Below are positions 33,173 to 35,548 of a DNA stretch of 38,066 bases, piece by piece (the first letter of the stretch is position 1; each line of letters starts with the position of its first letter). The position numbers and the translations under genes were made by a program. Under the pieces are notes generated by a model, which worked only from the letters and a program-made list of their open reading frames with translations, was not told where the DNA came from and searched no databases. The stretch spans positions 1-38,066 of the forward strand of contig JBDRUF010000012.1 of the NCBI GenBank assembly GCA_039801245.1, read 5' to 3'. Source of the DNA: a candidate division WOR-3 bacterium. Lineage in GTDB: Bacteria; Hydrothermota; Tepidihabitantia; Tepidihabitantales; Tepidihabitantaceae.

Positions 33173-34135
33173 TTACTTCTCTGTTTTTTCGTTCCTGTTC
33201 TGGTTGTTATTAATGTTATTTTCCTCTGCTGCCTTTGGCGGCAACTGTCCGAGTGCGCGCAGGCACTCCCGCGCGGTATTGACATGAATCTCAACCGTAT
33301 CCTCGGTGTTCAGGGCATAGCCGCCTGCCAAGACCGGCACAACCGGAATCCCTGCCTTATAGCAGTTGCTTATCACCATCCTGTCCCGCAATGCCAGCCC
33401 CCTTTTGGTCAGACGCAATGTCCCCAACTTGTCGTTCATATAAGGGTCCGCACCAGCAACATATATCACCAGCTCCGGCTTGTGCTCCTCAATAATCCTG
33501 GGCACCGCCTCCTGGATGTGCCTCAGATACTCCTCATCACCGGCGTCATCATCAAGCCCGATGTCCCAACTTGAGCGCTCCTTTATCGGATACAGATGCT
33601 CCTGATGGATGGAAAAGGTAAAGACCCTGGGGTCATCCTGAAATATCCGCGCGGTGCCATTGCCCTGATGCAGGTCGCAGTCAATTACCGCCACCCGCTC
33701 AACCTTGCCCTCAGACTGCAGTTTTCTGATTGCCACCGCAATGTCGTTGATATAGCAGAACCCCTCAGCCCGGTCAGCAAAGGCATGATGGAACCCGCCA
33801 CCGATGTGCATCGCAATCTTATCCTCAAGGGCAAAACGGCTGGCAAGGATTGTACCCGAACTGTGCAGGAGAAACCCGAACACAATCTCCCAGGTCAGGG
33901 GCAATTCAGAGCGGACCGTTCTTGATGTCCAGCGCAGGTTCAAGAGGTCGTCAAGATAATCCTTGGTATGCACCAGCCTGATGTCATCAATCACCGGCTC
34001 TGGCGGCTCAAAAAAATCGCCCTCCTGTACCAGCCCCTTGGCAAGCAGCGACTCCTTCACCATCTTATACTTGTCGGTCGGAAAGACATGAACGCCGATA
34101 TTGAAATGATACCGGTCGGAATATACAAATCTCAT
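33173..34135 (-). CDS. Histone-deacetylase-fold (AcuC/class II HDAC-like) enzyme
   Basis: The 320-residue zinc deacetylase has all active-site residues of the arginase/deacetylase superfamily. His116-His117 lie in GGGFHHAFADRAEGFCYIND, the zinc ligands Asp154 and His156 in VIDCDLHQGNGTA, and the third ligand Asp230 in AGADPYMNDKLGTL; the AGGY motif follows. The C-terminal tail is Asn/Lys-rich (ENNINNNQNRNEKTEK). Bacterial relatives act on acetylated polyamines, small amides or lysines. It stands upstream of two glycosyltransferases and a polysaccharide deacetylase on the same strand. The promoter is at 34181-34208, and an AAGGAT Shine-Dalgarno precedes the ATG. Confidence 0.9.
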   Translation of the reverse strand: MRFVYSDRYHFNIGVHVFPTDKYKMVKESLLAKGLVQEGDFFEPPEPVIDDIRLVHTKDYLDDLLNLRWTSRTVRSELPLTWEIVFGFLLHSSGTILASRFALEDKIAMHIGGGFHHAFADRAEGFCYINDIAVAIRKLQSEGKVERVAVIDCDLHQGNGTARIFQDDPRVFTFSIHQEHLYPIKERSSWDIGLDDDAGDEEYLRHIQEAVPRIIEEHKPELVIYVAGADPYMNDKLGTLRLTKRGLALRDRMVISNCYKAGIPVVPVLAGGYALNTEDTVEIHVNTARECLRALGQLPPKAAEENNINNNQNRNEKTEK

Positions 34136-34180
34136 ATCAACTTATCCTTTTGGTTCTTCTGTAATCTTAAATAAGAGAAA

Positions 34181-34208
34181 ATTATAGCAAATAAAAACCC
34201 GTTGTCAA
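34181..34208 (-). promoter_or_regulatory. Promoter of HDAC-like gene and glycan cluster
   Basis: On the minus strand, TTGACA (34208-34203), a 16-bp spacer and a perfect TATAAT (34186-34181) are followed by a leader of about 40 nt containing AAGGAT. This is a leadered, near-consensus promoter. Confidence 0.75.
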
Positions 34209-34220
34209 ACCAATCACCAA

Positions 34221-34748
34221 TCATTGGGCAAAAACCATCCCCTCACCAAACTTTCCATCGCACCGAGCTGCCCTTTCCCATCTCGGTTCAACACGAGTCA
34301 TTGACATTATAAAAATACCTTCCAATCTCTCAGCATAAAACTTCACTACCCAAATGGATTGACCCTTCAAATCATTCGACCCCTGCCTGATTAACACCAC
34401 CCCAAATCCCCTTATATCCCCTCCCCTGACTATCGCCCCGGATAGGACTCGGTGATTCACTCCCCGAGTCACTTATAGATTCACTCCCTGAATCAATTAC
34501 CGATTGAGACCAGGACTGAGTTACCGATTGACCCTCCGATTAATCCAGGCAGTCTCTGGGTAAATCACCCCCTTAGTGAATCACCGAATCAATTACCGAT
34601 TCAATCAGCAACTGAATCGCCGATTCACTCAGGGAATCACTCAGGGGGTCGTTCCCTGGGTCACCCAGGGGGTCACCCCCTGAATTACTCCCCGAATCCT
34701 CTCCCGTACCGTATCTAAGATTGGTTTCTGAATTGGATAAACAACCAT
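34221..34748 (-). pseudogene. Possible decayed repeat-protein gene, or non-coding repeat
   Basis: On the minus strand an ATG at 34748 opens 35 codons up to a TGA at 34643. The same frame then contains eight stops (TGA at 34643, 34631, 34607 and 34583; TAA at 34595, 34523, 34499 and 34475). From GTG 34472 it is open again for 83 codons to 34221. Every stop is the first codon of a 12-bp repeat unit. The repeat would encode a tetrapeptide like G-V-N-R. The C-terminal part (LKGQSIWVVKFYAERLEG, then MTRVEPRWERAARCDGKF) is not repetitive and not recognised. No Shine-Dalgarno is seen at either start. It may be a decayed gene or pure chance in a repeat. Confidence 0.3.
34440..34703. repeat. Degenerate 12-bp tandem repeat array, 22 units
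   Basis: Read on the minus strand, the units follow a consensus near TGAGTGAATCGG; examples are TGAGTGAATCGG, TGATTGAATCGG, TAATTGATTCGG, GGAGTGAATCTA and AGGGTCAATCGG. On the plus strand the five-base slot GANTC recurs every 12 bp at 34454+12k for 21 steps, exact in 9 of them and usually one or two changes off elsewhere. Twelve GANTC sites occur in 253 bp; about one is expected. Some units are inverted, giving palindromes such as GACTCGG/CCGAGTC (34446-34470), GATTCA/TGAATC (34478-34494) and CAGGGGG-TCA-CCCCCTG (34666-34682). No indels break the register. Confidence 0.85.
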
Positions 34749-34977
34749 AAGTTATTTTATTTCAAATATTTATATTATAATCCTCCTCATCTTCCGTCTC
34801 CTCAGCGTAATCACCTTGGGGTTATTTACAGCTAAGATTTGTCGGCGCTATTCGTAAGGTTTGTTCGCTTGATTTATTTTTCCCTTTACATCCGTTTTAA
34901 GACAATGCTTTTCTGGCTTATTCTTCCACAGGCTGGTAATATAAAGCCCTGACAGCCAATGTCAGTAAAAATAAATG
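34704..34977. other. AT-rich intergenic stretch between the repeat array and hslV
   Basis: Next to the array, about 34735-34790 is very AT-rich (with TTATTTTATTTC and ATATTTATATTATAAT). The rest holds no credible ORF. The only clear site is the inverted repeat at 34949-34965. I see no strong DnaA boxes. Confidence 0.5.
34949..34965. promoter_or_regulatory. Inverted repeat upstream of hslV promoter
   Basis: CTGACA-GCCAA-TGTCAG is a perfect 6-bp inverted repeat with a 5-base spacer, centred about 21 bp before the hslV -35 box. It could be an operator or the 3' stem of an upstream transcript. It is not the CIRCE heat-shock operator. Confidence 0.45.
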
Positions 34978-35005
34978 TTTACAGACCAATAGTTGCTGGT
35001 ATAAT
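34978..35005 (+). promoter_or_regulatory. Leaderless promoter of hslV
   Basis: TTTACA (34978-34983), a 16-bp spacer and a perfect TATAAT (35000-35005) lie 6 nt before the ATG at 35012. No Shine-Dalgarno is present. Confidence 0.75.
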
Positions 35006-35011
35006 ATTTTG

Positions 35012-35548
35012 ATGGCTATTGGTTTTCATCACACCACCATCATCGGCGTGCGCCGGGATGATAAGGTGGCGATGGCTTCAGATGGTCAGGTCACCTTGGG
35101 TGAGACCATTCTCAAGCACTCGGCGCGCAAGATAAGAAAACTGCACAATGGCAGGGTTCTTGTCGGCTTTGCCGGTGCTACCGCTGATGCCTTTACCCTG
35201 TTTGAGAGGTTTGAGGCAAAACTTGAGGAGTTCTCTGGGAACCTGCCCAGGGCGGTTGTTGAACTTGCCAAGGACTGGCGCACCGATAGGGTCCTGCGCC
35301 GGCTTGAGGCGCTTTTGGGGATTATGGACCGGCAGTATTCCTATGTTGTTTCCGGTTCTGGTGATGTGATTGAGCCTGATGATGGGATTGTTGCTATAGG
35401 CTCGGGTGGTCCTTATGCCTTAATCGCTGCCAGGTTGCTTTTGAAGCACACCTCGCTTTCTGCAGAAGAGATTGCGCGCGAGGCGATTCAGCAGGCGGCA
35501 GCGGTCTGCGTGTATACCAATAAAGAGATTTTTATTGAGACGATTTAG
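35012..35548 (+). CDS. hslV: HslV (ClpQ) protease subunit
   Basis: The 178-residue N-terminal-nucleophile peptidase forms the dodecameric core of the HslUV ATP-dependent protease. By alignment with E. coli HslV (MTTIVSVRR), the catalytic threonine is Thr8 in [10 protein letters not shown], after a 7-residue propeptide MAIGFHH. The GDGQVTLG-like [48 protein letters not shown] and [10 protein letters not shown]-like motifs are intact. It stands alone: the next gene is on the other strand, so its ATPase partner hslU is not adjacent. The last 4 bases overlap dapB's stop on the other strand. ATG 35012 is set by the promoter; TTG 35009 is less likely. Confidence 0.95.

Follow-up and report, generated by a model that had tools for sequence, protein, structure and literature searches.

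A degenerate array of 12-bp units lies upstream of hslV in the window, i.e., the whole 38,066-nt stretch of a candidate division WOR-3 genome that was analysed here. We regard it as probable that this array is an orphaned copy of a track that acts in cis as a binding and nucleation platform, in 12-bp register, for a chromosomal coat-like DNA-wrapping protein. The window belongs to a 1.7-Mb assembly (G000), which was covered by searches and by selected stretches, and the genes in the window, including those for LptF/G, HslV, and a Por secretion tail, indicate a bacterial source. The features of the locus are as follows.

33173–34135, minus strand: gene of the histone deacetylase (HDAC) family, flanking and outside the element (PF00850, E-value 3.4e-62).
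34137–35022, unstranded: enlarged intergenic region with the array, taken as far as codon five of hslV (blastn comparison of the window with the corresponding hslV loci in the genomes G001 and G002).
34446–34698, unstranded: array in 12-bp register, approximately 21 units, with a T-S-A core per 12 bp and a dyad-symmetric unit (periodic profile, lag-12 identity, and dyad class match).
34638–34698, minus strand: GC-rich palindromic "head" end of the array, containing GGGTCACCCAGGGGGTCACCCCCTGAATTACTCCCCGAAT (the same CCCC/GGGG units occur at the gene-proximal end of related arrays, and short solo copies elsewhere in the genome).
35009–35548, plus strand: gene of an HslV-type proteasome subunit, flanking and outside the element, starting approximately 310 nt from the array head (PF00227, E-value 1.5e-26).

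A refined periodic profile scored the array at 194 bits, with 17.6 bits for the runner-up site in the window, and the bounds given by an earlier sequence-only reading (34440–34703) proved right within a few bases. The lag-12 identity of the array (0.536) was the highest value anywhere in the 38-kb window and exceeded that of all 2000 dinucleotide-preserving shuffles (mean 0.253, maximum 0.369; the maximum across any lag of 5–30 was likewise 0.369), showing that the repeat is real and not random autocorrelation, which that reading had named as grounds for dismissing it. The register did not slip along the approximately 21 units, and identity remained at 0.42–0.60 at each multiple of 12 out to 240 bp. 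Because identity did not decay with distance, the array is a fixed pattern of constrained columns rather than a young tandem expansion. The reported excess of GANTC was also borne out, with 12 sites where approximately one is expected from composition (shuffle mean 2.5, maximum 8); nine of the 12 share one phase, and the other three sit in a phase 4 bases away. The constrained core is nevertheless T-S-A (TGA or TCA) once per 12 bp and not GANTC itself, which is a by-product. Other arrays, including those in sister genera, use other units (ARTC, GAYSAYC, and TGGY), and the proposed connection to CcrM methylation was therefore abandoned. In register, the unit reads the same on both strands, with two dyad centers 6 bp apart and a dyad class match of 0.50. 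An old coding repeat, also suggested earlier, was rejected: the sole open frame (frame 1, of the D-L-P-S type) is open on both strands, the best frame has 36 stops on each, and the most conserved base, T, falls at the wobble position.

The HDAC-family gene and hslV are separated by 886 bp here versus approximately 136 bp in the two same-genus species compared (G001 and G002; blastn), both of which lack the array at hslV. The sequence-only reading had held that the array would be undermined if close relatives lacked it at this position. The absence itself was confirmed, but the array is a member of a family dispersed over other loci, so that it is not thereby made spurious. Two related arrays of approximately 250–264 bp were recovered on contigs C1 and C23 of the same genome. 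These share 81% identity, and between them the core T and A are unchanged in 21 of 21 units, with the other columns averaging approximately 78%. The GC-rich palindromic end also occurs by itself, as short solo copies scattered through this genome. Those of the CACCCCCGGGGGTGAC type, which resemble a head without an array and look mostly intergenic, were noted at C58:1949, C16:24388, C21:11686, C19:4869, and C3:42689, and further ones at C17:17230, C8:20002, C28:15801, and C19:19175 (all in G000). Dispersed palindromic intergenic repeats tied to a gene family are known from the REP/BIME repeats with their RAYT partners; in the present case, however, a strict 12-bp register extends over approximately 300 bp, and the partner is a coat-like protein instead of a transposase. 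Dispersal over unrelated loci and the insertion at hslV relative to sister species would both suit non-autonomous, MITE-like mobile repeats without a binding partner, the 12-bp pattern being merely the internal structure of the mobile unit. We consider this highly improbable, given the strong column constraint after duplication and the stable association with one gene clade described below.

Across the order, a five-unit model built from sequence only matched 15 of the 28 genomes, with approximately 15 arrays in one of them. The arrays fetched were mostly 240–350 bp long (a few shorter pieces measured 93, 122, and 220 bp), kept an unbroken 12-bp register, and had the GC-rich head at one end. 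Gaps between related arrays were predominantly multiples of 12, other sizes occurring mainly in the more distant alignments. The three most conserved columns had a divergence of 0.11 and the six least conserved one of 0.34, an approximately threefold difference drawn from comparisons that include related, and hence non-independent, pairs as well as noisy distant alignments. The earlier idea that spacing is conserved as in protein-array sites thus gained support from both the whole-unit indels and the constrained columns. Two dyads 6 bp apart per unit were found in many arrays; some gene-linked arrays, for example, L250, L251, L266, and L268, are hardly dyad-symmetric. The hits of a pattern scan of named genomes were for the most part short repeats, homogeneous or due to chance, in unrelated taxa and showed no wide distribution. 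Two local observations were made in the genome G014. At L131 (approximately 1000–1250 in L038 coordinates; contig C24), the 12-bp array at 68995–69331 is directly adjoined by a degenerate hexamer repeat (CTCAAC/CTCGAC), and at L136 (positions 1–140; contig C7), a frame beside a shortened array looks like the C-terminus of an IS3-type transposase, so that an insertion may have truncated this array.

Many arrays in the sister genera lie upstream of a gene for a protein of approximately 123 amino acids, referred to here as coat-like. In these arrays the head is turned toward the gene, and the distance from array to start codon has a median of 234 nt (range 88–350). A strong lag-12 array was present upstream in about half of the 60 gene copies sampled, and 27 of the 28 array-bearing genes fell in a single 32-row clade (support 99/97). 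Gene copies with a quite different unit sequence still have a 12-bp array at the same place, and the type of unit tracks the protein subgroup. Seven of 128 control blocks (800 nt each) were positive, corresponding to known arrays and one additional 12-bp repeat close to a coat-like gene. Many coat-like paralogs have no array, indicating that the arrays are not needed by the whole protein family; the subfamily with the PxYL...RE motif lacks them except for one plain VNTR. In the genome G005, a second, separate 12-bp repeat occurs farther upstream of the same coat-like gene at L254 (approximately 567–700; contig C65). At L275 (contig C131), a very homogeneous 24-bp tandem repeat with TCAC.GKTACKS halves, which looks like an ordinary VNTR, lies approximately 295–528 nt upstream of a gene from the array-less coat-like subfamily. 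Four coat-like gene copies were sampled in the genome of the window, and only that at C3:52712 falls in the array clade, its upstream region retaining only a head remnant. No remnant of a coat-like gene was found in the window or beside the arrays on C1 and C23. The array in the window is thus an orphan copy with no coat-like gene adjoining it, and its link to such genes rests on the shared unit sequence.

Tandem sites adjoining the gene of a protein that binds them cooperatively are also typical of partition and iteron arrays, for example, TubC-type sites, which consist of 12-bp pseudo-repeats. The sequence-only reading had offered an iteron or partition site. However, the present arrays comprise 19–30 highly degenerate and often dyad-symmetric units in many dispersed copies, and scans of the flanks (the HDAC-family gene and hslV) and of ten other window proteins identified no rep or par gene, which argues against this assignment. 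Models of defense systems gave no convincing match.

The coat-like protein is homologous to the major capsid proteins of filamentous archaeal viruses (Adnaviria), the sequence match being weak but consistent. The Sulfolobus virus coat protein family (PF12193) was matched by 32 of 42 family members (best E-value 9.3e-8); at the Pfam cut-off of 25.2 bits, one member lies above (L255, 29.4 bits), and most others score 17–24 bits, below it. When a profile of the family was compared with the PDB, the five best matches were the coats of SIRV2, SFV1, SSRV1, and AFV1, with modest E-values of 0.005–0.024. An AlphaFold model (pLDDT 91.6) showed five helices, and in a Foldseek search of this model against the PDB, ranks 1–9 were all adnavirus coats with TM scores of up to 0.70, at E-values of approximately 0.01 despite a probability of 1.00. 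The model has the helical bundle with an N-terminal helix arm that is shared by the capsid proteins of SIRV2, SSRV1, AFV1, SFV1, and PFV2. All 28 genomes sampled from the order have the gene family, and a search of 119 further genomes from the rest of the phylum found it in none. Unlike the viral genes, it is a multi-copy chromosomal family of bacteria: at the seven coat-like loci judged by reading the ORFs, the neighbors were ordinary-looking cellular genes that differed from locus to locus. A virus or provirus of the Adnaviria was considered and rejected, as no companion virus genes were seen at these seven loci. No relatives of the protein were found in collections of viral contigs, phages, or plasmids.

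In the virions of SFV1 (PMC6105669), AFV1 and SIRV2 (PMC5517147), and PFV2 (PMC7189273), A-form DNA is covered at 12 bp per coat dimer. The period of the array therefore equals the published coat-dimer footprint in four solved virions, which is the only agreement on DNA wrapping between the two systems here; a sequence-registered 12-bp array is not described for the viruses in the passages of these reports that were consulted. We propose that each 12-bp unit would be occupied by a single coat-like dimer and that 19–30 consecutive units would form a platform, matched in register, on which such dimers load next to one another at one per 12 bp. Loading may start at the GC-rich head beside the gene, which would be the strongest site, and the loaded dimers would then nucleate a short protein–DNA filament, possibly of A-form DNA, upstream of their own gene. 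Such a filament might serve in the autoregulation (repression) of the adjacent gene, or it might seed local wrapping or packing of the chromosome. The two dyads 6 bp apart in many units are what a row of two-fold dimers predicts. Constraint and register would suit any cooperative dimeric binder equally, and the orphan arrays adjoin unrelated genes; the array might accordingly be the site of another DNA-binding protein, such as a repressor or a nucleoid protein, its 12-bp match to capsid dimers being coincidental. This is unlikely in our judgment, because the linkage tracks one clade of coat-like genes across genera, the unit type tracks the protein subgroup, and the period is that of the published coat-dimer footprint.

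The arrays might also act as RNA, being transcribed away from the gene into a repetitive transcript (long A-form hairpins or a sponge) that the coat-like protein could bind as double-stranded RNA. Both strands of the array fold far better than shuffles (z-scores of −6.2 and −7.4), one strand better than the other, and a conserved promoter-like flank (TAAC-N16-GATAAT) precedes the head and points into the array, for example, at L135 (2100–2228). Furthermore, the unit shows a strand polarity: when the strand that runs away from the gene is read in register, 22 of the 28 gene-linked arrays have more G-T than C-A mismatches. However, permuting whole units barely altered the folding (mean z-scores of −0.5 and −0.2), indicating that no specific RNA fold is present and weakening a role as RNA; the strand bias is reversed in some subfamilies, local hairpin covariation within units was absent, and no Rfam family reached its gathering score. 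A transcript of this kind is therefore very unlikely to be the function of the arrays. A structured non-coding RNA was rejected on the same grounds, the order of units being nearly irrelevant to folding and the only Rfam matches to the array being sub-threshold microRNA noise. Mini-hairpins within units were likewise discarded, with a covariation z-score of approximately 0; only the pair flanking TSA (z-score of 5) and one other pair of columns (z-score of 4) were clearly above shuffles.

The array family is thus probably a docking or starting site for the coat-like protein on the chromosome, of which the copy in the window, in our preferred reading, is an orphan. A broader proposal, which we put forward more tentatively, is that an adnavirus-type capsid fold, either long maintained in the order or shared through common descent, would act there as a DNA-wrapping system encoded in multiple chromosomal copies. 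Each paralog would have its own sequence-registered 12-bp loading track and form sequence-nucleated, possibly A-form filaments on the chromosome. A literature search that covered few subscription papers or preprints gave no report of bacterial homologs of adnavirus coats or of A-form DNA in WOR-3, and an earlier description is possible. According to a 2024 review (PMC10848233), adnavirians are unconnected to viruses of bacteria. A chromosomal gene family of bacteria that has the adnavirus coat fold would connect that realm to cells, and the paired 12-bp arrays would give a first sequence handle on how such proteins select the DNA that they wrap. Furthermore, the existence of array–protein pairs with differing units makes a direct test of binding simple.
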